64,000 bases of DNA, taken from the NCBI RefSeq assembly GCF_000376805.1, contig NZ_AQXT01000002.1:1488001-1552000 (forward strand), given 5' to 3'. Of the stretch, positions 47,635-63,113 are shown piece after piece. Position 1 is the first letter of the stretch; each line of letters begins with the position of its first letter. The position numbers were made by a program, and so were the translations under genes. The stretch is from Henriciella marina DSM 19595. GTDB lineage: Bacteria; Pseudomonadota; Alphaproteobacteria; Caulobacterales; Hyphomonadaceae. The notes below the pieces were generated by a model. It did not search any database and had not been told where the DNA came from. It saw nothing but the letters and a program-made list of their open reading frames with translations.

Positions 47635-49140
47635 ATGAGGATTCATCACTGGGATACCAATACCCACACCGGCCCAGCCATGAAGGTTGAGACGCGCACC
47701 CCAGCTTTGAACCCGTCCTCCGCCCCGTCAGCTACCACTGTCTATCCAGACTGGCTCGGCGACCACGCTTTCACGAAAATTCATGGCAGCCGCTTTGCCT
47801 ATATCGTCGGCGAGATGGCGCGCGGTATCGCGAGCCCGCGCATGGTCATCGCCGCCGTTCAGGCAGGTCTTGTCGGCTTTTATGGCAGCGCGGGTCTCAA
47901 ACCTGAAACAATCGCCGCCGGTCTCGATGAGATCGAAGCCGCGCTTGGCAAGGACGCGCCCGCCTGGGGCGCCAATCTCATCCATACACCGCAGCAGCCC
48001 GGCTATGAGCGCGCGGTCGTTGATCTCTTCCTGTCGCGCGGCGTCGCCCGCGTGTCAGCCTCCGCATTCATGCAGCTCTCGCCGGAAATCGTACGCTACA
48101 GCGCCGCTGGCCTCTCGCGCGCCGCCGATGGCAGCATCACACGCACCACGCACGTTTTCGCCAAGGTCTCCCGCGCAGAGGTCGCCCGCCAGTTCATGGC
48201 ACCCGCCCCCGATGCCATCCTGAAACAGCTGGTGGCACGTGGTGATATCACGCCAGAGCAGGCAGAGATTGCCGCCAGCGTTCCTGTCGCCCTTGACATA
48301 ACCGCCGAAGCCGATAGCGGCGGACATACCGACAACCGCGCTGCCGGGCCGCTTTTCTCCTCGCTTGTTCAGGCCCGCCGGGAAGTCTGCGAAACCCACA
48401 GTCTCAATGCCGACGAGATCCGCATCGGCCTTGGCGGCGGCATTGGCACGCCCTGGGCGGCCGCTTCGGCGTTCCAGATGGGTGCCGCCTACATCATCAC
48501 TGGCTCGGTCAATCAGGCCGCGGTCGAGTCCGGCCTCTCGCTCGCTGGCCGCAAGCTCCTCGCAGAAGCAGGCCCCGCCGATATCGCCATGGCCCCGGCC
48601 GCCGACATGTTCGAGCAAGGGGTCGAGGTTCAGGTTCTGAAACGCGGCACCCTCTTTGCCATGCGCGGGCGCCGTATGCGCGAGATCTACAAGTCACGCG
48701 CCGGCTTTACAGATTGCACTCCGCAGGAGCAGGCTTTCATAGAGACCGCCCTCGGTGAGCCCTACGCGTCCGCCTGGGAAAAGACCCGAGCCTATATGGC
48801 TGGCACCAATCCAAAAGAGCTTGAAAAGGCAGAAGCAGACCTTCGCCACCAGCTCGCCCTTGTCTTTCGCAGGTATCTTTTCTTCGGGGCCCAATGGGCC
48901 CGTGAGGGCGAGGAAAGCCGCCTGCGCGACTTTCAGATCTGGTGCGGCCCGGCGATGGGCGCCTTCAATGAGTGGGTCAAGGGAAGCCCGCTCGAAGCGC
49001 TCGAAAACCGGAGCGTCAAACAGATTGCGCTGAACCTCATGGACGGGGCCGCGCATCTGACGGGGCTTCAGGCGCGCCGGGCGCGCGGGGAAAACATTCC
49101 ACAATCAGCTTTCGACTATCGGGCGGGGCTATTCGAGTAA
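47635..49140 (+). CDS. pfaD: PfaD-type FMN enoyl reductase of polyunsaturated fatty acid synthase
   Basis: Trans-acting enoyl reductase of Pfa/PUFA synthases, an FMN TIM-barrel related to nitronate monooxygenase. RFAYIVGEMARGIASPRMVI begins the barrel. VALDITAEADSGGHTDNRAA is the diagnostic PfaD motif, IRIGLGGGIGTPWAAASAF binds FMN phosphate, and EQGVEVQVLKRGTLFAMRG with FNEWVKGSPLEALENR is the PfaD-specific C-terminal part. ATG 47635 is used; ATG 47680 is a shorter option without a ribosome site. It is first in the operon, 27 bases before the PfaA-type gene, matching pfa1 of myxobacteria. Confidence 0.9.
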   Translation: MRIHHWDTNTHTGPAMKVETRTPALNPSSAPSATTVYPDWLGDHAFTKIHGSRFAYIVGEMARGIASPRMVIAAVQAGLVGFYGSAGLKPETIAAGLDEIEAALGKDAPAWGANLIHTPQQPGYERAVVDLFLSRGVARVSASAFMQLSPEIVRYSAAGLSRAADGSITRTTHVFAKVSRAEVARQFMAPAPDAILKQLVARGDITPEQAEIAASVPVALDITAEADSGGHTDNRAAGPLFSSLVQARREVCETHSLNADEIRIGLGGGIGTPWAAASAFQMGAAYIITGSVNQAAVESGLSLAGRKLLAEAGPADIAMAPAADMFEQGVEVQVLKRGTLFAMRGRRMREIYKSRAGFTDCTPQEQAFIETALGEPYASAWEKTRAYMAGTNPKELEKAEADLRHQLALVFRRYLFFGAQWAREGEESRLRDFQIWCGPAMGAFNEWVKGSPLEALENRSVKQIALNLMDGAAHLTGLQARRARGENIPQSAFDYRAGLFE

Positions 49141-49167: not shown

Positions 49168-52100
49168 ATGGCAGACGGAACGTCGGGACCAGCAGATATA
49201 GCCATCGTCGGATATGGCGCGATGTTTCCCGGCCGCGGCGACGCGGCGGGCTTCTGGCGCGATATTGCCGAAGGCGTCGATACGCTGGGCCCGGTCCCGC
49301 CGACACACTGGCTGATCGAGGATTATTACGACGCAGACCCGAAGGCACGGGACAAGACCTATGGCCAGCGCGGCGGCTTCCTCTCGCCTCAGGGCTTCGA
49401 CCCGCTTTCCTTCGGTATTCCGCCCAACCAGATAGACGCCACAGACAGCGCCCAGCTCCTCGCGCTCATGGTGGCACAGGCCGCGCTCGATGAGGCTGAG
49501 AAAGCCACGAATGGCACGATTGACCGCAAGCGCACCTCCTGCATTCTCGGCGTCGCGTCAGCGACAGAACTCGTCGGCCATATGTCTGGCCGTCTGCAGC
49601 GTCCTGCCTGGATAAAGGGCCTGCGGGACGCCGGCCTTCCCGAGACAGACGTCCAGGCGATCGCCGACCGCATCTCGGAAAACTTCTCCGAATGGAAGGA
49701 AAGCACCTTCCCCGGCCTTCTCGGCAATGTGGTTGCCGGGCGTATCGCCAACCGGATGGATCTTGGCGGATCGAACTATGTGACGGACGCAGCCTGCGCC
49801 TCGTCTCTCTCGGCTCTGCACGGCGCGATACATGAGCTGCGCGCGGGCGACAGCGACCTTGTCCTGACCGGCGGTGTCGACGCCCTCAACGACATCCTCA
49901 TGTATATGTGTTTCTCGAAGACACCGGCCCTCTCCCCGACAGAAGACTGCCGGCCATTCTCCGACAAGGCCGATGGGACGATGCTCGGCGAGGGTATCGG
50001 CATCCTCGCGCTCCGGCGTCTTGCCGATGCAGAGCGGGACGGCAATCGCATCCATGCCGTCATCAAAGGCATTGGCGCAGGCTCTGACGGGCGCGCCACC
50101 GCCATCTATGCGCCGCTACCTGATGGGCAGGCGCGCGCGCTTCACCGCGCCTATGAACAGGCCGGTTATGATCCGCGCTCGGTCGAACTGGTCGAAGCAC
50201 ATGGCACAGGTACCAAAGCTGGCGACGCAGCTGAAATTGCAGGGCTGAAACAGGTCTTCTGCGAGGAAGGTGAGATTGTCGATACGCCCTGGTGTGCCAT
50301 CGGATCGGTAAAGTCCCAGATCGGCCACACCAAGGCCGCCGCCGGATCAGCCAGCCTGATCAAGGCGACAATGTCGCTGTCCAGAAAAGCCCTGCCGCCA
50401 ACCATCAAAGTCGACCAGCCCGCCCCGGCACTTGCAGGCTCCCCCTTCTATGTGAACCGCGGACTTCGCCCATGGATCAGGGACAAGTCCCATAAACGGC
50501 GGGCGTCGGTCAGTTCGTTCGGCTTTGGGGGTTCGAACTTCCACGTCACGCTGGAAGAATACACCGGTCCTCAGGCGGCTCTGCCGGAACGCATCCTGCC
50601 AGCGGAACTCGTCATGGTTTCTGCCAGCTCTCCAGAGGCGCTCGCCACGGCGATCGAAGCGACGGCCCGCAAACTGGTGCAGGAAGAAGACCTCGCCATC
50701 GCCGCAAGCGAAAGCCATGCAGGTTTTGAAGCTGGCGATCTCTGCCGCGCAGCCATCACCGCCAGCAGCAATGACGACTTTAATGCAAAGGCCGTAAAGC
50801 TCGCCGCCCTTATCCGCGCAGGCAACGCCGAAACCGCGCCGCTGCCGAAGGGCAGCAGCGTCAGCCTGACCGCCTCCAAACCCGGCAAGCTCGCCTTCCT
50901 GATGCCGGGACAAGGCAGCCAGTATGTCGGCATGGGCCGCGACCTCGCCCTCGCCTTCCCTGAGGCGCGCGCCGCTTGGGATTATGCCGCAAGCCACAAA
51001 AAGGCTGGCAAGCTTGGCCTCCACAGGCTCGCCTTCCCGCCATCAGCTTTCAACGAAGAGCAGGCAAAGGCGCAGGCCGAGACGCTGACCGCGATGGAAA
51101 ACGCACAACCTGCGCTCGCCGCCGCGACGATGGCTGTCCTCGCCGTTCTGGAAAAGGCTGGCCTCAATGCCGACATGGCCGCCGGTCACAGCTTCGGTGA
51201 GATCATGGCGCTTAATGCGTCAGGCGTCCTGTCAGACAAGGATGCGCTAAGCACAGCCTGCAAACGTGCGAGACTGATGAGCCAGGCCGCCGCCGACAAT
51301 GAAGGCGCCATGCTGGCGACGCAGGCTTCAAGCGAGCAGCTCGCGCCGATCCTGAAAAATCATCCGGACGTAGTCATAGCTAATGACAATGCGCCAACTC
51401 AGACGGTGCTTTCCGGTCCGGTCGATGCCATCGAAGCCGCCCGAAAGGCGATTGAGGCTGCTGGGATCAAGGCCCGCCGTCTGCCGGTCGCATCGGCGTT
51501 CCATTCGCCTATCGTGGCTGGCGCTGTCGCACCTTTCCGCAAGGCGCTCGGCAAAACCGATTTCGCCAAGGGCGACTTTCCGGTCTTCGCGAACGCGTCG
51601 GCCAAGCGCTACCCGCTCGCTTATGACAAGCAGCGTGACCTGCTGGCGGGACAGATCGAAAGCCCCGTCCGCTTCCGCGAAATCATTGAGGCGATGCATG
51701 ATGCCGGCGTCACGACCTTTGTAGAGGCGGGCCCCGGAACCGTCCTCACCGCCCTTGTCGGACAGATCCTGCCAGGCAAGGCCGATGCCGTTGCGCTCGA
51801 TGACAAGAAGGGCAACGGCCTCGCCGCTTTCCTCGCAGGGCTCGGCAAACTCGCCGTCCTCGGTCATGAGATCGATTTCGAAGCCCTCTTCGCCAACATG
51901 CCAGCCCCAGAGGCACGCAAGCCACGCTCCAAGCATGCCATCGACCTCACCGGCGCAAACTATAACAAGCCCTACCCGCCAAAGGGCGGCGCTGCGGCGC
52001 TGCCTCAGCCGAAAGCGGAGGCGTCTATCCCCGCGGCTGTCAGCAAACCTGTACCTGCCGCCCCGCCAGATCCGACGCCGCCGCGCGCCCAAACCTCAAC

Positions 52101-53097
52101 CTCTTCTTCCCAGATTTCCCAGCCAGGACCTTCGCCCATGACTGAGCCCCGCCAGACCGCCCACGCCTCCACCACCGCGCAGATCCACGCCCAGATGACA
52201 GAGGCCCACACCGCCTACATGCAGGCGCTGCAGACGGCGCACGCCCAATACATGCAGACCACGCAGGCCATGCTCGCATCGGCAGGCTCATTAGCTACTC
52301 CAGCGCCTCAGCCGCAGGTCCAGCCCGCACCGCAACCGGCTCCAGCGCCCGTTGCGGCCGCACCCACTCAACAGCCAGTCCCTGCGCCGACACCAGTGAC
52401 ACCGCCACCAGCGCCAGCCCCGGCCGCAGCCGCGCCAGCCCCAACACCAGCGCCTCAACCGACACCTACTCCCGCTCCGGCGCCGGCGGCCGCACCTCCC
52501 CAGGACTTCACCGCCCTCGTCACCAGCCTCGTCGCCGAGAAGACCGGCTACCCAGCCGACATGCTCGAGCCCGATATGGACCTTGAGGGGGAGCTTGGCG
52601 TCGACTCCATCAAACAGGTCGAGATCCTCTCAGCCCTGCGTGAGAAGATGCCATCCCTGCCAGAGATCGAGCCTGAACAGATCGCTGAGCTGCGCACCAT
52701 TGCAAAGATCGCCGCATTCCTCAGCCCATCGGCTGGCAGCGCGCCCGCACCGAAACCAGCCCCTACCCCGGCAGCGCACGCAAATGGAAACGGTCATGCC
52801 AACGGCAACGGCCACCACATTGCCGCCGCCCCAGCTCCGGCACCTGCAGCTCCTTCGGCAGCCGCTGGCGTCGACATGAAAGAGCTTGTCCGCAACCTTA
52901 TCGCCGACAAGACGGGCTACCCACCGGAAATGCTCGAAGACGACATGGACCTTGAGGGCGAGCTTGGCGTCGACTCCATCAAACAGGTCGAGATCCTCTC
53001 CGCCCTGCGCGAGCAGATGCCGAACCTGCCAGAGGTCGAACCGGAACAGATCGCGGAGCTGCGCTCGATCCGGAAGATCGCTGATTTTTTTGGGTAA
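49168..53097 (+). CDS. pfaA: PfaA-type polyketide/PUFA synthase subunit: KS-AT-ACP-ACP
   Basis: Type I iterative synthase subunit, 1309 residues. The ketosynthase (about 8-460) has Cys210 in DAACASS, His345 in EAHGTGT and His387 in QIGHTKAA. The acyltransferase (about 565-890) has GQGSQYVGMG and Ser675 in GHSFGE. A helical Q/M/A segment (TTAQIHAQMTEAHTAYMQAL) and an A/P-rich linker lead to two acyl carrier domains with GVDSIKQ (Ser1147 and Ser1270). It ends at TAA right after the second ACP, without the ketoreductase that PfaA proteins carry next; that domain is encoded just downstream in the -1 frame behind a slippery T7. GAGGGG precedes the ATG. Confidence 0.9.
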   Translation: MADGTSGPADIAIVGYGAMFPGRGDAAGFWRDIAEGVDTLGPVPPTHWLIEDYYDADPKARDKTYGQRGGFLSPQGFDPLSFGIPPNQIDATDSAQLLALMVAQAALDEAEKATNGTIDRKRTSCILGVASATELVGHMSGRLQRPAWIKGLRDAGLPETDVQAIADRISENFSEWKESTFPGLLGNVVAGRIANRMDLGGSNYVTDAACASSLSALHGAIHELRAGDSDLVLTGGVDALNDILMYMCFSKTPALSPTEDCRPFSDKADGTMLGEGIGILALRRLADAERDGNRIHAVIKGIGAGSDGRATAIYAPLPDGQARALHRAYEQAGYDPRSVELVEAHGTGTKAGDAAEIAGLKQVFCEEGEIVDTPWCAIGSVKSQIGHTKAAAGSASLIKATMSLSRKALPPTIKVDQPAPALAGSPFYVNRGLRPWIRDKSHKRRASVSSFGFGGSNFHVTLEEYTGPQAALPERILPAELVMVSASSPEALATAIEATARKLVQEEDLAIAASESHAGFEAGDLCRAAITASSNDDFNAKAVKLAALIRAGNAETAPLPKGSSVSLTASKPGKLAFLMPGQGSQYVGMGRDLALAFPEARAAWDYAASHKKAGKLGLHRLAFPPSAFNEEQAKAQAETLTAMENAQPALAAATMAVLAVLEKAGLNADMAAGHSFGEIMALNASGVLSDKDALSTACKRARLMSQAAADNEGAMLATQASSEQLAPILKNHPDVVIANDNAPTQTVLSGPVDAIEAARKAIEAAGIKARRLPVASAFHSPIVAGAVAPFRKALGKTDFAKGDFPVFANASAKRYPLAYDKQRDLLAGQIESPVRFREIIEAMHDAGVTTFVEAGPGTVLTALVGQILPGKADAVALDDKKGNGLAAFLAGLGKLAVLGHEIDFEALFANMPAPEARKPRSKHAIDLTGANYNKPYPPKGGAAALPQPKAEASIPAAVSKPVPAAPPDPTPPRAQTSTSSSQISQPGPSPMTEPRQTAHASTTAQIHAQMTEAHTAYMQALQTAHAQYMQTTQAMLASAGSLATPAPQPQVQPAPQPAPAPVAAAPTQQPVPAPTPVTPPPAPAPAAAAPAPTPAPQPTPTPAPAPAAAPPQDFTALVTSLVAEKTGYPADMLEPDMDLEGELGVDSIKQVEILSALREKMPSLPEIEPEQIAELRTIAKIAAFLSPSAGSAPAPKPAPTPAAHANGNGHANGNGHHIAAAPAPAPAAPSAAAGVDMKELVRNLIADKTGYPPEMLEDDMDLEGELGVDSIKQVEILSALREQMPNLPEVEPEQIAELRSIRKIADFFG
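52576..53000 (+). repeat. Near-identical tandem ACP coding repeats
   Basis: A 56-base block at 52576-52631 recurs at 52945-53000 with a single mismatch. It encodes MDLEGELGVDSIKQVEILSA around the phosphopantetheine serine of each ACP. The 369-base spacing is exactly 123 codons, so recombination between copies would lose or gain one ACP without breaking the frame. Confidence 0.85.
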
Positions 53098-53132
53098 GGG
53101 GCGCGCCGGCGTCACCTGACGCTGCTCGCCCC
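53085..53132 (+). promoter_or_regulatory. Candidate programmed -1 ribosomal frameshift site (U-UUU-UUU plus stem-loop)
   Basis: At the end of the pfaA frame, GAT TTT TTT GGG TAA contains seven T (53085-53091), giving the zero-frame slippery heptamer T-TTT-TTT. After a six-base spacer (GGGTAA), GGGGCG (53098-53103) pairs with CGCCCC (53127-53132), and inside it GCGTCA (53109-53114) pairs with TGACGC (53117-53122). The -1 frame is closed by TGA at 53082 just before the run and is open from there to 54596. Slippage gives D-F-F-W-V-R and a 1809-residue KS-AT-ACP-ACP-KR. A T8 tract in the real genome, or slip-strand phase variation, would have the same effect. Confidence 0.6.
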
Positions 53133-53177
53133 GCTTCGCGCGATGCTGGACCCGTTTCCAGGCCTTCGCCGCTGGCC

Positions 53178-54596
53178 TTGAAAGCCGTGGCCTATGTCAG
53201 CCAGCCTGCCATCGGACGGGTCACGCCGGGCCTGCGCGAAGCATCGCTGATCGAATGGGTCACGCCAGACCTCGCCGCCGCTGAGCCTTTCATCGCTGCG
53301 CTTGGCGCATCAGGCTTTAAGGTCCGCGCGGTCACCGAACCAAGCGGGACCGCCAGCGCCTTAATCCTCGCCCACGGCCTTTCCAGTCCGCGTGAGACGC
53401 TGCACGCCGACGCCGTCGCGGCGCTGAAAAGCACTGCCCCACAGTTCGAAACCCAGGGCGGCGCCGTCATTCTGTTGCAGGACACAGGCGGGCTTTTTCA
53501 GCCGCAGGATCACCGCGCCTGGCGCGGCGGCCTTTCCGGCCTAGCCCGCACCGCCGCGCGCGAGTTTACGGTCGCCACCGTCCGGCTCATCGATATCGAC
53601 ATGGCTGGCTTCGGCACGTCGCTCGCCGCCAGCCACCTCGTCGAAGAACTCCTCACCGGCGGCACAGCGCCGACGACAGGCCTCAGCCCGGCAGGCCGCT
53701 ATGTGCCGCAGGACACAAACTTCACCCTGCCCCGCAACCAGCCCGGCCGCCTTGGGCCACAGGATGTGGTCCTCGTCACCGGCGGCGCACGCGGCGTGAC
53801 CGCAGATTGCGTCATAGAGCTCGCCCGCCGCACAGGTGCGCGCTTTGCGCTTCTTGGGCGCTCCCCCGTGACGCCATGGCCAGACGATTTGCCGACAACG
53901 ACCGACGAGAAGACCCTGCGCGGCGCCCTCGCCAAAGCAGCCAAGGCCGCAGGCGAAAAGATCACCCCCGCCGCCCTCAACACCCGCGCCCGCGCGCTGC
54001 TCTCAGGCGCTGAAATCCGCGAAACTCTCGCCGCAATCGGTCAGGCAGGCGGCGAAGCGCGCTACATCCCTGCAGACGTCTCAGCCCCCGCCGCGCTCAC
54101 CCAGGCCCTTGCCGATATCCGCGCCGACCTCGGCGAGATCACAGGCCTCGTCCACGGCGCAGGCGTCCTCGCCGACAAGCTCATCCGCGAGAAGACGCCA
54201 GAGCAGATTGCCCGCGTCTTCGGCCCCAAGATCGGTGGCCTAGATGCCCTGCTGACACAGCTCGACACCTCCAAGCTGAAGACCATCGCCTTCTTCTCAT
54301 CCGTCGCCGCCCGCTATGGCAATGCGGGTCAGGCCGACTACGCCATGGCGAACGAGATCCTGAACCGCATGGCCTGGTGGCTGAAATCGACCAATCCAGA
54401 TGCTGCCGTCACCTCGATAAACTGGGGCCCATGGGATGGCGGCATGGTGGATGATGGCCTCCGCGCAAAATTCGCCGAGCTTGGCGTCGCCCTCATCTCA
54501 AAACCTGCTGGCGCCAATGCCTTCGCCGACGCCGTGCTCGCAGGCCCCGCCTGCCCGGTCGAAATCGTTGCAGGCGCGGAGATCGCCCATGGCTAA
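53178..54596 (+). CDS. Ketoreductase domain of PfaA, encoded in the -1 frame
   Basis: NADPH-dependent polyketide-type ketoreductase. An N-terminal structural half-domain (SLIEWVTPDLAAAEPFIAAL) precedes the catalytic Rossmann domain with VVLVTGGARGVTADCVIELA, then GLVHGAGVLADKLI and FFSSVAARYGNAGQADYAMA. The catalytic tyrosine is Tyr388, with Asn nearby. The first start here is TTG 53178, followed by GTG 53187; neither has a visible ribosome site, and the A/P/S/R-rich codons open back to 53085 read like a domain linker. This favours synthesis as a frameshift extension of PfaA. Its stop overlaps the next gene in ATGGCTAA. Sequencing error in the T run is the main alternative. Confidence 0.85.
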   Translation: MKAVAYVSQPAIGRVTPGLREASLIEWVTPDLAAAEPFIAALGASGFKVRAVTEPSGTASALILAHGLSSPRETLHADAVAALKSTAPQFETQGGAVILLQDTGGLFQPQDHRAWRGGLSGLARTAAREFTVATVRLIDIDMAGFGTSLAASHLVEELLTGGTAPTTGLSPAGRYVPQDTNFTLPRNQPGRLGPQDVVLVTGGARGVTADCVIELARRTGARFALLGRSPVTPWPDDLPTTTDEKTLRGALAKAAKAAGEKITPAALNTRARALLSGAEIRETLAAIGQAGGEARYIPADVSAPAALTQALADIRADLGEITGLVHGAGVLADKLIREKTPEQIARVFGPKIGGLDALLTQLDTSKLKTIAFFSSVAARYGNAGQADYAMANEILNRMAWWLKSTNPDAAVTSINWGPWDGGMVDDGLRAKFAELGVALISKPAGANAFADAVLAGPACPVEIVAGAEIAHG

Positions 54597-57500
54597 GCCG
54601 ACGTTCGAACCTATCGCCATTATCGGCCGCGGCTGCGTCCTTCCGGGCGCGCTCTCCCCGGCTGAGCTCTGGCAGGCCGTGCTCGAGGAAAAGACCCTCA
54701 TCACCGACGCCCCGCCCGGCAAATGGGGCGTCACCGAAGCCGAGCAGCAGGCCCTCGGCTACAAGGGCGCCTTCGTCACCGGCTTCGACAAGGTCTTCGA
54801 CGCCGCCGCCCATGACCTCGGCGACACCGACGCCGTAGACCTCGACCCGGTCTTCCAGTGGCTGCTCCATGCAGGCCGCGAAGCCTGGCGCGAAGCTGGG
54901 CAGCCCAAGGCCCGCAAATCTCGTATCGGCGTCATCGCTGGCAATCTTGGCTATCCGAGCCGCGCTCTCTCTGATTTTGCCGCAGACATCTGGCTGGACG
55001 GCACCTCCGACATCCACCCCCAGAACCGTTTCAATACAGGCGGCCCCGCGCAGCTTCTCGCCCGCGCCCTTGGCGCCGCTGGCCCAGCCTTCGCCGTGGA
55101 TGCGGCCTGCGCCTCCTCGCTCTATGCCATCAAGCTCGCCTGCGACCGCCTGCGGGACCATAGCCTCGATGTCGTCATTGCAGCGGCCGTCAACGGCGCT
55201 GACAATCTTATCCTGCATCAAGGGTTTTCTGCGCTCAACGCGCTCTCGCCGACCGGCCGTTCTCGCCCCTTCGTGGATGGCGCAGACGGGCTTGTCCCTG
55301 CAGAAGGCGCCGCCGCCATTGTCCTGAAACGCCTCAGCGACTGCGATCTTGCAGACCGCGTCTTCGGCGTCATTCGCGGCATCGGCCTCTCCAATGATGG
55401 CCGCCGCAAGTCCCTCCTCGCCCCGGACGGCGACGGCCAGCGCGAAGCCATGGCTGCGGCCTGGGCCGGGTCCGGCCTCGACCCCGCCCGCGACATCGGT
55501 CTCCTCGAAGCCCACGCAACCGGCACGCGAACCGGCGACGCTGTCGAGCTTGCCGCCACCGCCGCGCACTTTGATGGTTTGGAAAACCTCCCCATTGGCT
55601 CGCTCAAAGGCAATCTCGGTCACCTCATTACCGCCGCCGGCATGGCGAGCCTCATCAAGCTGACCTTCGCGGTGAATGAGGGCGTCATTCCGCCGACACG
55701 GCTTGAAGGCGAAGCCATTTCCGGCTTCGACGGCAGCGGTCTGACAACCGCCCGGCAGGGCAAGTGGCCGGACGACCGTCCCCGCGTCGCCGCCCTCTCG
55801 AACTTCGGTTTTGGCGGCAATAATGCCCACCTCATCCTCGCTGCCGATGACGGCCAGCGCGCCCGCCGCAAAACCGCCACGCCAAATCGCAAGCCGCCGC
55901 ACATCGCCGTCACTGCAACTGGACTTTCGCTTGGACCAGACCGCGGTGTCGCCCGAGTGCTCCAGCGCCTGATGCGCCCGCACATGGTTGCGCGCGGCCC
56001 GATGCGCGAGACCCATGCCGACCCGAAAGCGCTACGCGCGCCACCATCTGATCTTTCGTCCGCGCAAGGCCAGCAGGTTGCGCTCTGGGACGCGGTCGAT
56101 GAGGCGCTCGCCCGCACCTCGCTTGCCGACGGTGCGCGGGTCGGCGTCTACACAGGCTTTTCCTGCTCGCCCGAAGCGACCCGCTGGATGCTCCGTGCAC
56201 GGATTGCGCAGCGCCTCGGTCTCGCACCAAACTCACCGGAGGCGGAGGAAGCCCGCAACGCCATCGCCGTCCCGTTAAAGGCAGGCGACGTGCTCGGCGC
56301 CATGCCGAACGTCTCTGCAAACCGGTTGAATGTTCGCGGCGACTGGCGCGCGCTTGGCTTTGCGGTGATGGAAGAGGAAGCATCCGGCCTGCGCGCCGCA
56401 GAGCTTGCCATCCGCGCGCTCCACGCTGGCGAAATTGACGCCGCCATCGTCGCCGCCGCTGATCTCTCCGCCGATATCGTGCACGCCGCCACCGGCAGCG
56501 AACATGCGGGTGACGCCGCCGCCGCGCTCATCCTCCAGCGCAGCGCCGACGCGCCGTCTGCGACCGAAATCCGCGCCCTCCGCATAGAGGAAGGTACACG
56601 CCCCAATGCCATGATTTCCCGTATCTATGGCCATGCCCATGCCGCAGGCGGCCTCGTCGAACTTGGCCTCCAGGCCGAAGCTGCCACCCGCGGGCTGGAG
56701 CTTGGCGAAACCGGTCTCGTGCCACGTCTGGGCAATACATCCCACCGGCCGGCGGTCGCAGGTGCCGCGGTCACACTGAAGACCCGGCCTCAGCCAACAC
56801 CCGACCTGCTGCGTCCGCCGCCGCGCCTGGAGACTTATGGCGCCGATTGCCGGGACGCGCTCATCACCTGCCTCGAGGCGCAGCGCCAGTCGAGCGACGG
56901 CAATCTTCGCGTCGCCTTGCTAGGCACACGACCTGAAGAGATGACGGCGCTCCGCCTTGAAGCAGCCTCACGCCTTCGCGCGGGGTCGCTTGAGAGTAGC
57001 GACGGCATCATTTTTGGCGAGGGCGCGCCAGAAGGTGACCTCGCCTTTGTCTTTACCGGGGCGGCGGCCGCCTATCCCGGCATGGGCCGCGATCTCTTTT
57101 CGGCTTTCCCATCTCTCGGCAAGCTCGTTACCCAGCGTTTCCCGACCGCTCAGTCGGTCGCCGATACGCTCGCCACGGGCCTCGAAAGCGCCTTCAGCCA
57201 GCTTCGCGCGACAACGCTTGTGTCGCAGGCCCAGCACCTCCTCCTGACGCAGATGCTTGGCCTCCAACCAACCGTCGCCATGGGGCTTTCATCCGGCGAA
57301 ACCAACTCGCTGATCGCCTTCGGCGCATGGGTCGATGCCGATGGCCTGATGGGTACGATTGGCGAAAGCGGCATGTATGACCGCTATCTGGCCGGCAGCT
57401 TCGACACCGCTCGCAAGGCATGGGGAGAGAAAGCCCCGATCGAGTGGGCAACATGGCGCCTGCGCACCAGCAAGGCCGCCGTCCGCGATGCCATCAAGCC

Positions 57501-60500
57501 CGAACCGCGATGCGACATCACCATCATCTATAGCGCCAGCGATGTCGTCATCTCAGGCGAGGCGACCGCCTGCCAGCGCGTCATCAAGCGGCTTGGCGCA
57601 GCGGCCATCCGCGTCCCGCACGACCTCACCGTCCACACCCCAGCCATGCTGCCTTATGAGAAGACCTGGCATCAGCTCCACTTTCGCAAGACCAAAGCGC
57701 CCAAGGTCGTGCGCTTTTACGCCAACGCCATCAACGGCGCTTATGAGGTCTCCGCCGACAGCGCCGCCAACATGCTCACCGGACAGGCGATCGCGCCGAT
57801 CGACTTCCCAGCGACACTCCACGCAGCGTATGCCGACGGCGTGCGGACCTTCATCGAGATCGGCCCGCGCGACACGCTCACCGGCGCAATCGAAGAAGCG
57901 CTTGGGCCGTCGGTCACGGCGCTGCCGGCAGACCGTTTCGGCAAGCCCGCCCTCGACAGTATCGCGATGCTGGCGGCGCGGCTTTTTGCTGGCGGTCACG
58001 CACTGAATCTGGACTGGCTGAAATCACAGCTGGACGAGGCCAGCGCGAACACCCTGCCTCTCCGCATCAAGGACAAGAGCGCCGTCACCTTCGACGCCCA
58101 TGCCGCGCCACCACGCACGCCTCAGCTTCCATCGCAATCAAGGCAGACGGCGCGTCGCCGCCTTACCCCACCGAAGCGGCCATCCTTCAATCCCGGGCCA
58201 CTTCCCTCTGCGAAACCCGCCCTCGCGCGCTCGCTTCCCCTGCCACCTGGCGCAAGCTGGGTGCCGCCCGTGGTGAAAACTGTCGGGACGGCTGTGCTGG
58301 AACGCAAGCGAACCGCAGTAGGCCAGACGCCCTCGCCAGCGCCAAATGCAGCTCCGGCCAGACGTATGTCACCTGCGCCTGCTCAAGCCCACAAATCCAT
58401 CTCGCCGCTGGAACGGAAAGCGCCCACAGGCCCGTCCTTTACGCGTGCACAGATCGAGCAAGCCGCCGTCGGCAATATCTCGGACATTTTCGGCAAGGCC
58501 TTCGCCGCACAGGATAAATACCGCCGGCAGGTGCGCATGCCGCGCGCGCCCATGCTGCTCTGTGACCGGATAACCGGTATGGATGCCGAAGCCCTCGTTC
58601 AGGGCAAGGGCACCATCTGGACAGAAACAGATGTGACGGCGGACCTCTGGGCAGTCAGCGACGGGATGCTACGCCCGGGTCCACTGATCGAAGCGGGGCA
58701 AGCCGATCTCGCGCTCATCTCATGGATGGGCGCGGACATGCTGAATTGTTCGGATCGCGTTTATCGCCTGCTCGGCTGTGAGCTCACCTTCCATGAAGGC
58801 GGATTGCCGCGTGTGAGTGAAACCCTGCGCTTCCAGATTTCCATCAAGGGCCATGCTGAGCTCTCTGGCGTGCGCATGTTCTTCTTTGAATATGACTGCT
58901 ACGCTGATGAGCGCCTGCTTCTCTCGGTCCGCAACGGTCAGGCGGGCTTCTTCACCGATGAAGAACTTGCCAATTCCAAGGGCGTTCTTTGGGACGCCGC
59001 TGAAGGCGCGCCGACAGCAGAGCCGCGCCTCGACAAGACGTCTTCATCAACCAAGCGAAGCTTCACCGCCGCCGACGTCGCCGCCTTCCGCGCAGGCGAC
59101 ACTTATCGCTGTTTCGGCGAAGGGTTTGAGCGCGCCGCGCCTCATACCCGCCCCGCTCGCATACCAGACGGAAAGCTCGCCCTCTTTGATGAGGTCCTGC
59201 AGTTTGACCCTGAAGGCGGGCCATGGAGACGCGGCTATCTGAAGGCGCGCCACCACGTCTCGAAAGACGCATGGTTCTATGACGGCCACTTCCATGAAGA
59301 CCCCTGCATGCCGGGCACGCTCATGGCTGAAGCAGCGGTGCAGGCGCTGGAGTTAACCGCCGCCGGGCTAGGCCTGACCATTGAGCGCGATAGCCATGTC
59401 TTCGAACCGGCACCTGGCGCGCCAGCAACCTTCTATTGCCGGGGACAGGTCACCCCGGACGCCGACCATGAGGTTACCTATGAAGTCTTTGTCGACGAAA
59501 TAGTCGATAGCGAAGAACCGATGGTCTTCGCCAGCCTCTTGGCCCGCTCCGATGGCCGCAAGGTCTTCTATTGTCCGCGCTTTGGCGTGCGCCTCCGCCG
59601 CCAATGGCCAAAGCCAGACAAGCTCGGGGCCACCCCGCATTATGTAAACCCAGGCTGCGATGTGCGCGGCGATGAGGCCGCCCTTATCGAATGCGGGTCC
59701 GGCGCGCCGAGCAACGCCTTTGGCAGCATGTATGCGCCCTTCGACACCAAGGGCGCTGTCCCCCGCTTGCCCCAGCCGCCCTATCACATGGTCAGCCGAG
59801 TTATTTCCGTCTCTGAACCAGCGGGCCAGCAGGGCGCTGGTCTCGAAGCGGTCGCCGAATACGATATTCCAGAAGACGCCTGGTATTTCGAAGATGGCGG
59901 CACGGGTACGATGCCCTTCTCGGTTCTGAGCGAAGTTATCCTCCAGCCGTGTGGCTGGCTTGCCTCCTACTCAGGCTTCGCACTGTCCGGTGAGACGCGC
60001 TTCCGAAATCTCGATGGAAAAGGCACGCTCCATCGCCAGGTGAGACCTGAAGACGGCATGGTCCGCACCACCACGACGCTCACCCGCTGTTCGCGTATCG
60101 GCCCAATGACGATCGTCTTCTTCGCGCTTGAAGCCACACTTGCCGATGGTACGCCCATCATCTCGCTGGAAACGAGCTTCGGCTTCTTCACCAAAGCCTC
60201 GCTCGCTGCGCAGGCCGGCCTCAAACCAACCGATGCCGACCGCGATTTTGTGAACGCGCCAGCAGACCCGCCGAGCGAAGCAGATACGCGTCTCAAGGCT
60301 TCACACAATCGCTTGGCCCTCTTCGATGTCATCGACCGGTTCGAACCGGAAGGCGGCGCGGCGGGCCTTGGCCTCATCCGCGCCCGGCAAGCCGTCGATC
60401 CCTATGCCTGGTACTTCAAGGCGCACTTCTTCTCCGACCCGGTCCAGCCAGGCTCCCTCGGTCTCGACATGCTGGTCCAGCTTCTTGCCCGGGCCGCAGA

Positions 60501-61896
60501 CCTTAATGGTCACGCCGACCGGTTCGAACATCCGGTCTGGGAACCGATTGCTGAAACCCATGAGGTCAACTGGACCTATCGCGGACAGGTCATGCCGACC
60601 GCGAAACAGGCGACCCCGATGGTGGAAATTCTTGGCGTCGAGGAGCGAGACGACGCGACCATCATCACCGGGCGCGGGGTCCTCTGGGTCGATGGATTGA
60701 AGATTTATGAGATGCGGGATCTGAGCGTCAAAATTTGCACCGCCCAGACACCGTCCAGACACCGTCGGGACACCGTGTTTTCGGCCAAAAATGCAGGCTG
60801 GCTGGACTCTCACAAACCGACCCACACCCTCCCTGCACTCCCTCTTCTCGCCCAAGCCGGAATGGCCATGCGCCAGGCCGCAGAGGCTGGATTTGAAGGT
60901 TATCCGATTGAATTAACTGCTTTTTCCCCAAAACGCTGGGGCAGCCTTACAGGCGGTGGCTTGAGCGTTGAAATCAAGGTCACCCCAGACGGGGAGGCCC
61001 GCCTTCGCGGTCGCGACGCCCTGTCGGGCGATGCGCCATGGTATGAAATTTCCCAAGGAAAGATCAGCAAACCGGTTCGCGGGCCGAAGCCAAAACTTGA
61101 ACAAGAAAAGCATGGAAAGAAGCGCGGCGATCCTTACGCGTCAGGTGATCTTTTCCACGGCGCGGCCATGCAGCCCGTCCTCTCGATGCGCTGGGACGCA
61201 AAGGGGTTCGAGGCTATTCTCGATCTCGCCGCTGCGATAAATCCGGGGGACCCGTTCGACCCCGTCATACTGGACGGGCTGGTGCATGGTCCGCCGCATG
61301 AAACCCCTGAAGACTGGTTCAAAGGCGCGGAAAACACCGCCATCTACCCCGTCCGCTTAGAGCGCCTGACCGTTCTGCAAGACCTCCCCGAAAGCGGAAA
61401 ACTCACCGTGAGAGGCAGGCCCCAAACCCGGCTTGAAGGCTCAGAAGACCTGCCTGTCCTCATCGAAGCCTATCTCGAAGATGGAAGCCTCTGGGCCCGG
61501 CTCGATCTGGTTGAGAAAGCCTATCCCAAAGGCAAACTCGGCGCGCTTAACCCTATGGCACGAAAAGCTTTTCTGACTGGCAGGAGCGATGACGTGGTTG
61601 CCCCACTAAGCTGGGAGCAAAGCGGAAGATCGCTTGTTTCACCCGCAGATGTCATGGCCTGCGACTGGCTCCCCGGTACGGTTGCCGCCGCCTGGGGTCT
61701 TGAAGGCTTGACTGGCGCAGATCTCATCAAGGGCGTCGCGGTGAAGGAATTCTTCGCCCGCAAATGGCAGGTCCATCCCCAGAAGCTGACGCTCGATCCG
61801 CCATTTGTGATCGGCCCGAATACCCGCAGCCGTTACGATCTACGCTTCGACAAGACCGCAAGGGCCTGGTCGGTTGGAGATGATCCCCATGGATAA
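54589..61896 (+). CDS. pfaC: PfaC-like synthase subunit: KS-CLF-AT-DH-DH plus PKS-type DH
   Basis: Giant subunit of 2435 residues. KS1 (about 5-420): Cys174 in DAACASS, His309, His345. Then a cysteine-less KS-like chain-length factor (about 425-770, with EEEASGLRA at the site). An acyltransferase (about 820-1130) has Ser901 in GLSSGE, as in PfaB. Two FabA-like dehydratases follow, each a double hot-dog: His1567 in DGHFHEDPCMPG and His1946 in AHFFSDPVQPG. A third, PKS-type dehydratase has LDSHKP (His2075), DLFHGAAMQ and FDPVILDG (Asp2229). The last 110 residues are unassigned. ATG 54589 has GGAG seven bases upstream and overlaps the KR stop by eight bases; longer starts lie inside the KR gene. 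Confidence 0.88.
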   Translation: MAKPTFEPIAIIGRGCVLPGALSPAELWQAVLEEKTLITDAPPGKWGVTEAEQQALGYKGAFVTGFDKVFDAAAHDLGDTDAVDLDPVFQWLLHAGREAWREAGQPKARKSRIGVIAGNLGYPSRALSDFAADIWLDGTSDIHPQNRFNTGGPAQLLARALGAAGPAFAVDAACASSLYAIKLACDRLRDHSLDVVIAAAVNGADNLILHQGFSALNALSPTGRSRPFVDGADGLVPAEGAAAIVLKRLSDCDLADRVFGVIRGIGLSNDGRRKSLLAPDGDGQREAMAAAWAGSGLDPARDIGLLEAHATGTRTGDAVELAATAAHFDGLENLPIGSLKGNLGHLITAAGMASLIKLTFAVNEGVIPPTRLEGEAISGFDGSGLTTARQGKWPDDRPRVAALSNFGFGGNNAHLILAADDGQRARRKTATPNRKPPHIAVTATGLSLGPDRGVARVLQRLMRPHMVARGPMRETHADPKALRAPPSDLSSAQGQQVALWDAVDEALARTSLADGARVGVYTGFSCSPEATRWMLRARIAQRLGLAPNSPEAEEARNAIAVPLKAGDVLGAMPNVSANRLNVRGDWRALGFAVMEEEASGLRAAELAIRALHAGEIDAAIVAAADLSADIVHAATGSEHAGDAAAALILQRSADAPSATEIRALRIEEGTRPNAMISRIYGHAHAAGGLVELGLQAEAATRGLELGETGLVPRLGNTSHRPAVAGAAVTLKTRPQPTPDLLRPPPRLETYGADCRDALITCLEAQRQSSDGNLRVALLGTRPEEMTALRLEAASRLRAGSLESSDGIIFGEGAPEGDLAFVFTGAAAAYPGMGRDLFSAFPSLGKLVTQRFPTAQSVADTLATGLESAFSQLRATTLVSQAQHLLLTQMLGLQPTVAMGLSSGETNSLIAFGAWVDADGLMGTIGESGMYDRYLAGSFDTARKAWGEKAPIEWATWRLRTSKAAVRDAIKPEPRCDITIIYSASDVVISGEATACQRVIKRLGAAAIRVPHDLTVHTPAMLPYEKTWHQLHFRKTKAPKVVRFYANAINGAYEVSADSAANMLTGQAIAPIDFPATLHAAYADGVRTFIEIGPRDTLTGAIEEALGPSVTALPADRFGKPALDSIAMLAARLFAGGHALNLDWLKSQLDEASANTLPLRIKDKSAVTFDAHAAPPRTPQLPSQSRQTARRRLTPPKRPSFNPGPLPSAKPALARSLPLPPGASWVPPVVKTVGTAVLERKRTAVGQTPSPAPNAAPARRMSPAPAQAHKSISPLERKAPTGPSFTRAQIEQAAVGNISDIFGKAFAAQDKYRRQVRMPRAPMLLCDRITGMDAEALVQGKGTIWTETDVTADLWAVSDGMLRPGPLIEAGQADLALISWMGADMLNCSDRVYRLLGCELTFHEGGLPRVSETLRFQISIKGHAELSGVRMFFFEYDCYADERLLLSVRNGQAGFFTDEELANSKGVLWDAAEGAPTAEPRLDKTSSSTKRSFTAADVAAFRAGDTYRCFGEGFERAAPHTRPARIPDGKLALFDEVLQFDPEGGPWRRGYLKARHHVSKDAWFYDGHFHEDPCMPGTLMAEAAVQALELTAAGLGLTIERDSHVFEPAPGAPATFYCRGQVTPDADHEVTYEVFVDEIVDSEEPMVFASLLARSDGRKVFYCPRFGVRLRRQWPKPDKLGATPHYVNPGCDVRGDEAALIECGSGAPSNAFGSMYAPFDTKGAVPRLPQPPYHMVSRVISVSEPAGQQGAGLEAVAEYDIPEDAWYFEDGGTGTMPFSVLSEVILQPCGWLASYSGFALSGETRFRNLDGKGTLHRQVRPEDGMVRTTTTLTRCSRIGPMTIVFFALEATLADGTPIISLETSFGFFTKASLAAQAGLKPTDADRDFVNAPADPPSEADTRLKASHNRLALFDVIDRFEPEGGAAGLGLIRARQAVDPYAWYFKAHFFSDPVQPGSLGLDMLVQLLARAADLNGHADRFEHPVWEPIAETHEVNWTYRGQVMPTAKQATPMVEILGVEERDDATIITGRGVLWVDGLKIYEMRDLSVKICTAQTPSRHRRDTVFSAKNAGWLDSHKPTHTLPALPLLAQAGMAMRQAAEAGFEGYPIELTAFSPKRWGSLTGGGLSVEIKVTPDGEARLRGRDALSGDAPWYEISQGKISKPVRGPKPKLEQEKHGKKRGDPYASGDLFHGAAMQPVLSMRWDAKGFEAILDLAAAINPGDPFDPVILDGLVHGPPHETPEDWFKGAENTAIYPVRLERLTVLQDLPESGKLTVRGRPQTRLEGSEDLPVLIEAYLEDGSLWARLDLVEKAYPKGKLGALNPMARKAFLTGRSDDVVAPLSWEQSGRSLVSPADVMACDWLPGTVAAAWGLEGLTGADLIKGVAVKEFFARKWQVHPQKLTLDPPFVIGPNTRSRYDLRFDKTARAWSVGDDPHG
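60744..60776 (+). repeat. Three tandem 11-base repeats inside pfaC
   Basis: CCAGACACCGT occurs twice in direct tandem (60744-60754, 60755-60765), followed by CGGGACACCGT (60766-60776). The array lies at the boundary between the second FabA-like and the PKS-type dehydratase and encodes an arginine-rich linker. Since 11 is not a multiple of three, gain or loss of one unit would shift the frame. Confidence 0.75.
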
Positions 61897-62470
61897 TTTC
61901 GAGATCATCCCCGTCACAGACGCAACGCTGCCACTCGTCCAGCATCTGCGCTACCGCGTCTATTGCGCCGAGAAACAATTCGCCATGGCAGGCGCCGACC
62001 ATGAGGCCCGCCTGCTGCGCGACGACTCCGACAGGCTTGGGGAAACTTTCGCGCTTTTTGACGGGGCTGACCTTGTCTCGAGCGCGCAGGTCATCCCGGT
62101 TTCCGCCGATGAAACTTCTGAAAAGTTTCGGGTTTTCGACCTGCCGAGCTTTCTTTCTTCGGGAGAGACCTGCGTCATCGTTTCCAAACTAGTGACGGCG
62201 CCGGAGCGGCGGGGGTCGAAGACGCTGGGCCCGGTCATGCGGGCCGTGCTGGAATATGTTTCCCGCAACAGGCACCGCTATATCGCCATCCTCGCCGAAC
62301 CGACCATGCGCGAATTCTACGGCTCGATGGGATTTGAAATCCGCAAGGAAGGCATCGACGCGGCCCCTTTCGGCAGCGTCACTCTCATGGTGTTCGATAT
62401 GCAGGATGAGCGTCACACCAGCGGGAAGTCTTTGGCCGGCTGGATGTTCAAATCTGTTTTTGCACGCTGA
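61889..62470 (+). CDS. LuxI-fold/GNAT acyltransferase at end of pfa-like operon
   Basis: Acyltransferase of 193 residues resembling N-acyl amino acid synthases, LuxI-type autoinducer synthases and PEP-CTERM-associated acyltransferases. LPLVQHLRYRVYCAEKQF is the N-terminal R-x-x-V-Y segment, HEARLLRDDSDRLGETFALF corresponds to the acidic LuxI block, VIVSKLVTAPERRG is the central strand, and MREFYGSMGFEIRKEGI is the GNAT C-terminal block. ATG 61889 overlaps the pfaC stop in ATGGATAA with GGAG nine bases upstream. The likely job is to take the finished chain from an ACP and pass it to an amine acceptor; that is inference. It takes the place of the terminal AGPAT of myxobacterial Pfa3. Confidence 0.72.
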   Translation: MDNFEIIPVTDATLPLVQHLRYRVYCAEKQFAMAGADHEARLLRDDSDRLGETFALFDGADLVSSAQVIPVSADETSEKFRVFDLPSFLSSGETCVIVSKLVTAPERRGSKTLGPVMRAVLEYVSRNRHRYIAILAEPTMREFYGSMGFEIRKEGIDAAPFGSVTLMVFDMQDERHTSGKSLAGWMFKSVFAR

Positions 62471-63113
62471 AGGCAATGGAGCAGCAGGCCTCAAGGCCCG
62501 CGTCCAGCCGCATCAGGCAGAGGTCTCCCACGCGCTCGTGAACAACCAGATTATCCGCGTCGCCAATTAGATATTCTGCTGGTATTTCAACGCTCTTTGC
62601 CCCGCCTCGAAGGCCTTCTCCCCTGCATTTCAGGATCGCTTCCTTGGCGGTCCAGAGCCGGTAGAAAGCCCAGAGGTGGGCCACGTTTTCATCAATTGCA
62701 TTGATGAGTTCAGCTTCCTGCGGCAGGGCGACCATCCCGAGGATGGCGGCTGTGTCGCGGTCTGCGATCTGTTCGATATCGATCCCGACCATACCATTCG
62801 GAAACAGCGCTGCGCACGCCAGCGGGCCAGACCGCGACCAGCTGATACCCATTTCAGGGTGGCCCTTGAGCCCCGGACGGGCGTCATCGAAACTTTCCAG
62901 CTCAATCACACCATCGTCCGGCAGGCGCCGCATCGCGAGTTCCCGCATCAGCCAGCGCGAATGAAGATAGTCCTGAGCGTCGGCTTGCCGCCGGAAACGG
63001 GCGGCGCGATCGGCTTCTGGCTGGTCGGCAGGCTCTAATTGACGGGGATCGTTTCGGCGGTCTGACAGGCTCCATTCCGGCATCCGGCGCGGGGGATTAT
63101 CCCGGCTCGTCAC
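62448..63113 (-). CDS. Sfp-type 4'-phosphopantetheinyl transferase
   Basis: Attaches phosphopantetheine from CoA to the serine of carrier proteins, here most likely the two ACPs of the neighbouring synthase. VGIDIEQIADRDTAAI holds the magnesium-binding D-x-E, and FYRLWTAKEAILKCRGEGLR is the W-x-x-KEA signature. MGISWSRSGPLACAAL matches the family's H/S-N-S block with a serine in place of histidine. The length of 221 residues is normal. GTG 63113 overlaps the sigma factor stop in GTGA. The last 23 bases overlap the convergent acyltransferase, so transcripts of the two units are antisense at their ends. Confidence 0.88.
   Translation of the reverse strand: MTSRDNPPRRMPEWSLSDRRNDPRQLEPADQPEADRAARFRRQADAQDYLHSRWLMRELAMRRLPDDGVIELESFDDARPGLKGHPEMGISWSRSGPLACAALFPNGMVGIDIEQIADRDTAAILGMVALPQEAELINAIDENVAHLWAFYRLWTAKEAILKCRGEGLRGGAKSVEIPAEYLIGDADNLVVHERVGDLCLMRLDAGLEACCSIAFSVQKQI

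Follow-up and report, generated by a model that had tools for sequence, protein, structure and literature searches.

Among the cellular genes of bacteria, few families are known to use programmed frameshifting. One of the closest known systems is dnaX, in which one gene provides a long and a short product, tau and gamma, by means of an in-frame heptamer, an immediate stop in one of the two frames, a downstream stem and an upstream SD-like sequence; a shift making the long form has been reported for some dnaX genes (PMC3711429). In the -1 frameshifts of the insertion sequences IS3/IS911 and IS1 the shift gives a long fusion product, and the heptamers U_UUU_UUC, A_AAA_AAG and G_GGA_AAC are used there too, the first of these being among the more efficient (PMC4066793). 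As regards the synthases, canonical PfaA (Type A, Shewanella; TIGR02813) has the order KS-AT-ACPn-KR in one continuous frame as described in the literature. In Type D and Type H clusters pfaA has been described as split at the ACP-KR boundary into separate genes, pfaA1 (KS-AT-ACPn) and pfaA2 (KR), recoding not being mentioned (Shulse and Allen, 2011, PMC3098273; 2016 review, PMC4882568).

The pfaA junction analysed here shares with dnaX the in-frame heptamer, the immediate stop in one of two frames and the downstream stem, an upstream SD-like sequence in the pfaA lineages outside the Hyphomonadaceae, and the single gene with a long and a short product, which for pfaA are predicted only. Both arrangements, a shift to the short or to the long form, exist for dnaX and for pfaA; in Henriciella the shift would make the long form, as in the insertion sequences. 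The gene differs from dnaX in encoding a subunit of a type I fatty-acid/polyketide synthase, identified as PfaA by TIGR02813, and not a clamp loader, and pfaA heptamers are U- and C-rich besides A-rich, unlike those of dnaX. It differs from the insertion sequences in being a cellular biosynthetic gene which is vertically conserved in its family and is not a mobile element. With the Type D and H pairs it shares the domain boundary that falls between two reading frames, and after the shift it would have the domain order of canonical PfaA, which in Shewanella lies in a single frame.

The window, that is the whole stretch of 64,000 nt from Henriciella marina DSM 19595 that was analysed (G+C 62%), carries the following genes of the pfa cluster.

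47635 to 49140, plus strand: pfaD, enoyl reductase family (TIGR02814)
49168 to 53097, plus strand: pfaA zero frame, KS-AT-ACP-ACP, 1309 aa, the predicted product without a shift (TIGR02813)
53085 to 54596, plus strand: -1 frame with the ketoreductase (KR), C-terminal part of the predicted 1809-residue frameshift product
54589 to 61896, plus strand: fused pfaB/pfaC-like gene with KS-CLF, AT and three FabA-like dehydratase domains
62448 to 63113, minus strand: phosphopantetheinyl transferase, pfaE-like (PF01648)

The zero frame alone scores 1053.1 against TIGR02813 (omega_3_PfaA), above the cut-off of 1010.1, while the KR frame scores 288 bits against the KR portion of that model and contains a Pfam KR match at about 53769-54437 (E 6e-35). 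The order KS-AT-tandem ACP-KR, with pfaD, pfaC and the phosphopantetheinyl transferase adjoining, satisfies the criterion for PfaA, and this standard KS-AT-ACP2-KR order is complete only given a -1 shift. The start of the pfaB/pfaC-like gene at 54589 overlaps the KR stop, and its protein shows three FabA-like matches where two dehydratase domains are usual. The end of the pfaB/pfaC-like gene is overlapped by a gene of the GNAT fold at 61874-62470, which matches FeeM (N-acyl amino acid synthase, PF21926) and suggests that the acyl product of the synthase may be passed to an amino acid or amine.

The junction between the pfaA and KR frames reads GCT GAT TTT TTT GGG TAA GGGGCG and is composed of the following elements.

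53082 to 53084, plus strand: TGA closing the -1 frame upstream, immediately 5' of the slippery run
53085 to 53091, plus strand: slippery heptamer T_TTT_TTT (Phe-Phe codons), found as T_TTT_TTY in 57/57 distinct junctions of this type
53092 to 53097, plus strand: six-base spacer, made up of the last zero-frame codon GGG and the stop TAA
53098 to 53132, plus strand: stimulatory stem-loop, supported by the fold and by covariation over 47 sequences

A first-pass annotation made from sequence alone had described a T7 slippery heptamer, a six-base spacer, a nested GC-rich stem-loop and a 13-base overlap of the two frames, and these were confirmed to the base. The run at 53085-53091 is the sole T7 in the window and lies inside the 13 nt overlap; the pfaA frame reads it as T, TTT, TTT, followed by GGG (53092-53094) and TAA (53095-53097). 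As had also been claimed, the -1 frame is closed up to 53084 and then open through the KR, without stops from 53085 to 54593, and where the annotation gave the KR no ribosome site of its own we find near the junction only the weak starts TTG 53178 and GTG 53187. The outer arms of the stem are GGGGCG (53098-53103) and CGCCCC (53127-53132), with inner arms at about 53108-53113 and 53118-53123. An Rfam search of the junction gave no match. The stem-loop stands 6 nt downstream of the heptamer, and its minimum free energy is -27.9 kcal/mol (z -1.5), which alone is not exceptional; support for the stem therefore rests on covariation, since energy alone is weak evidence in GC-rich DNA. Three criteria of a -1 frameshift cassette are thus met, namely an overlap that contains a zero-frame X_XXY_YYZ heptamer, a downstream RNA structure at a spacing of 5-9 nt (here a 6-nt spacer before a covarying stem), and evolutionary conservation of the site and of the frame relation.

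We consider it very likely that this junction is a programmed -1 ribosomal frameshift cassette, as the first-pass annotation had proposed; the slippage itself is inferred, and no product of it has been measured. In the proposed mechanism the stem-loop, six bases further on, would detain a ribosome whose P and A sites are occupied by UUU codons; both Phe-tRNAs would re-pair one base back on U_UUU_UUU, and translation would enter the ketoreductase. Ribosomes that slip would read D-F-F-W-V-R across the junction and make KS-AT-ACP2-KR (1308+501 = 1809 residues), and those that do not slip would stop one codon later and release KS-AT-ACP2 (1309 residues), so that the proportion of PfaA with KR to PfaA without it would be fixed by a single mRNA, in the way that dnaX fixes that of tau to gamma. 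The arithmetic of the first-pass annotation, in which slippage restores the PfaA order in 1809 residues alongside a 1309-residue form, was correct; both products remain predictions and their stability is inferred.

The conservation of the junction was addressed across 105 Hyphomonadaceae species genomes, which include the own genus Henriciella and a second large genus, Hyphomonas. The KR is present in 57 of the 105, lies outside the KS-AT-ACP frame in all 57 and is fused in none, its own frame never exceeding 619 residues; the ACP end was found in 14 of the 29 Henriciella genomes. Outside the family, the KR is fused in five relatives of the order and three of the class, in frames of 1512-2836 residues. 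We collected 57 distinct junctions of the Hyphomonadaceae type, two of them from Granulosicoccus, and each consists of U_UUU_UUY followed by exactly one codon (3 nt) and a stop, the identity of which varies (TAG 21, TGA 21, TAA 15), with a GC-rich stem behind it. Among the 56 with the KR in -1, 35 read GAT-TTT-TTT and 19, about a third, are T6C variants reading GAT-TTT-TTC, the remaining two having GGT or AAT in the first position; TTT makes up just 26% of the upstream Phe codons of these genes. It should be noted that junctions of one lineage are not independent of each other. The elements of the cassette and their conservation are thus shown, and the comparison with relatives that the first-pass annotation had called for, to tell programming from error, favours programming. 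That annotation had raised as alternatives a true T8 missed in sequencing or assembly, or slip-strand phase variation between T7 and T8, and a homopolymer sitting at the frame break of one genome does invite such a reading. Against it, neither T8 nor a fused frame occurs in any of the 57 distinct junctions, which come from independent assemblies, and T6C variants and three different stops occur at the same place. Assembly error and phase variation are contradicted by the junctions of the relatives and can be all but excluded.

The KR is in -1 phase in 56/57 junctions over 19 linker lengths, a phase lock that is not expected of independent genes. Within 180 nt past the pfaA stop the -1 frame has a stop in none of 56 species, the +1 frame in 55 and the zero frame in 39. 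This bears on the possibility that there are simply two genes, with a stand-alone KR whose translation begins close to the pfaA stop through coupling or re-initiation, as would apply to Type D pfaA1/pfaA2. In its favour are the description of Type D and H clusters as split (PMC3098273, PMC4882568) and the availability of TTG 53178 and GTG 53187 in the KR frame. It is opposed by the phase lock and by the scarcity of starts: when 81 split junctions of all types were inspected up to 90 nt past the stop, 23 had no ATG, GTG or TTG in the -1 frame, 61 had no ATG, and just 2 had a start preceded by an SD. It would also leave the heptamer, the spacing and the stem unexplained. We regard separate genes as very unlikely and reject them for the Hyphomonadaceae on account of the phase lock and the lack of starts; coupling stays possible for single cases outside the family such as L227, where a GTG overlaps the pfaA stop behind GGGAGGT.

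In a single family member (locus L069 of the Hyphomonas-type genome G047) an internal deletion located 3' of the stem has severed the KR from the -1 connection, which may be a natural knock-out or an assembly fault. This loss counts against a programmed frameshift and is the point in favour of a decaying pseudogene or neutral split, in which the KR would no longer be needed. Such decay can be all but discounted, given that the KR motifs do not vary among the family members sampled, that the remaining members have long open KR frames and that the stem covaries.

The sequence of the stem differs between genera, its position being constant. Over 47 sequences 81.8% of the cells in the stem are paired, as compared with 74.4% when the 3' letters are shuffled, and there are 66 double changes against 28.6 in the shuffled set. 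The covariation score of 0.276 (0.176 shuffled) was reached by 0/500 shuffles, every slid version scores lower, and one outer-stem pair alternates between A-U, G-U and G-C. Covariation of the stem is thus shown. An upstream SD-like stimulator is an optional element in bacteria; at the Hyphomonadaceae sites it is weak (median rank 0.20 of the local null) and does not convince. Granulosicoccus (L094, L100, L208) carries a cassette of the Hyphomonadaceae type, and its KR groups with the Hyphomonadaceae type; the pfa cluster has therefore probably been transferred together with its frameshift signal.

A further alternative is transcriptional slippage, in which RNA polymerase adds one U at T7 and some mRNAs are fused without any slip of the ribosome. 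U_UUU_UUU can also support this process, the run is a homopolymer, and such slippage is known where the run is longer, the cited lengths being more than 8 for Tn and more than 7 for An (Antonov et al., 2013, PMC3711429). Against it, the T6C junctions (19/56) are short for polymerase slippage and are proper ribosomal heptamers, the stem covaries at a fixed 6-nt spacing, and the C_CCT_TTN and G_GGA_AAN sites of other lineages, described below, are implausible substrates because they are not homopolymers. Transcriptional slippage is very unlikely here and ribosomal frameshifting remains the preferred reading.

The occurrence of such signals beyond the family, which the first-pass annotation had missed, was determined from 189 distinct ACP-KR junctions, among them 105 fused cases and 80 -1 splits. 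An in-frame X_XXY_YYZ heptamer lies within 15 nt of the stop in 77 of the 80 -1 splits, the chance expectation from the same genes being 0.9% for the last four codon positions. The splits belong to the Pseudomonadota, Bacillota, Actinomycetota, Myxococcota, Verrucomicrobiota and Bacteroidota, and the heptamer beside the stop varies by lineage (A_AAA_AAG, C_CCU_UUN, G_GGA_AAN), as follows.

Paenibacillus species: A_AAA_AAG TAG
Acidimicrobiales: C_CCT_TTG NNN stop, followed with identical spacing by a GGCTGGT/ACCAGCC stem
Myxococcota-related class: either A_AAA_AAG TAA followed by a long stem or G_GGA_AAG stop
Pelagicoccus: A_AAA_AAC TCC TAA
Actinomadura: G_GGA_AAA
Persicobacter psychrovividus (L240, Bacteroidota): G_GGA_AAG 9 nt before the stop, KR in -1

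At most non-Hyphomonad sites an SD-like sequence ranks among the best few percent of local positions. The recurrence of the cassette in other lineages is thus shown, and to judge from the Persicobacter psychrovividus example at least some Type D/H pairs may be frameshift genes. The three -1 splits without a heptamer beside the stop are two mycobacterial ones (L192, L202), which break well inside the KR region and probably reflect errors or decay, and L260. In two loci (L110, at about 5864, and L244), which belong to a genome of the Elusimicrobia and to one that the Gammaproteobacteria search returned, the KR is in a +1 relation on A10/A12 runs, and here transcriptional slippage is the more probable cause; slippage or coupling also stays possible for the outside A-run cases L096, L101, L253 and L259. 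The +1 call at L178 was rejected, as it is produced by a further frame break downstream.

In many fused genes a mirror image of these sites occurs, also missed by the first-pass annotation, in the form of a heptamer at the domain boundary with an immediate stop in the -1 frame behind it; by analogy with E. coli dnaX, a shift here would yield a KR-less PfaA. With a fixed zone and a fixed heptamer definition, mirror-image sites were found in 27 of the 105 fused rows, where the remainder of these frames would predict 1.5. The other 78 rows have no such site, and two forms of PfaA are thus not universally needed. The KR tree requires many changes between arrangements, at least 11 per main label (three labels) on the starred branches alone, and sister species with a common heptamer show opposite arrangements: the two Persicobacter plasmids, Mycolicibacter nonchromogenicus and its relatives, a G_GGA_AAR clade of the Myxococcota, and the Acidimicrobiales. 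On the Persicobacter plasmids (L239, L240) the G_GGA_AAG is common to both and a different frame continues into the KR.

Since sister species flip the arrangement on a common heptamer, selection appears to keep the pair of products rather than one product. We infer that several lineages are under selection to make PfaA in both forms, with KR and without; selection on the ratio of the two forms has not been demonstrated. A bolder reading, which we think likely, is that bacterial Pfa synthases, which make secondary lipids, have repeatedly adopted a subunit produced in two forms, with KR and without, that cassettes of differing sequence originated at, or replaced one another at, the ACP-KR boundary in six phyla or more, and that the arrangement flips between a shift that makes the long form and one that makes the short form with the heptamer being kept, several of the "split pfaA" pairs of the literature being single recoded genes. 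If so, subunits with and without KR probably occur side by side in PUFA-type synthases, and neither structural models nor heterologous expression have considered such a stoichiometry; the two-gene annotation would be wrong here, synthetic fusions would lose the ratio, and the reason for making a megasynthase subunit that lacks one reducing domain would become a testable question. The first-pass annotation knew of no described frameshift in Pfa synthases, and none was found in the open-access literature searched: 2026 genome-mining papers do not mention frameshifting, the portion searched of a large recoding review mentions neither polyketides nor fatty acids, the main text of the GeneTack survey lists no such family, and full-text searches combining frameshifting with these synthases, which did not cover subscription papers, supplements or preprints, gave nothing relevant. 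The novelty of recoding in a type I fatty-acid/polyketide synthase is thus provisional.

Among the mirror-image sites, that of the mycobacterial fused pfaA genes is C_CCT_TTT GAN, conserved in 13 sequences and standing behind AGGTGATC or close variants, which match the 3' end of 16S rRNA. By analogy this site is dnaX-like and would make a KR-less PfaA. Loci with C_CCT_TTT GA(G/C/T) are L095, L107, L129, L179-L187, L144 and L153, and the site uses the less-used codons CCT and TTT in DNA of 64-72% GC.
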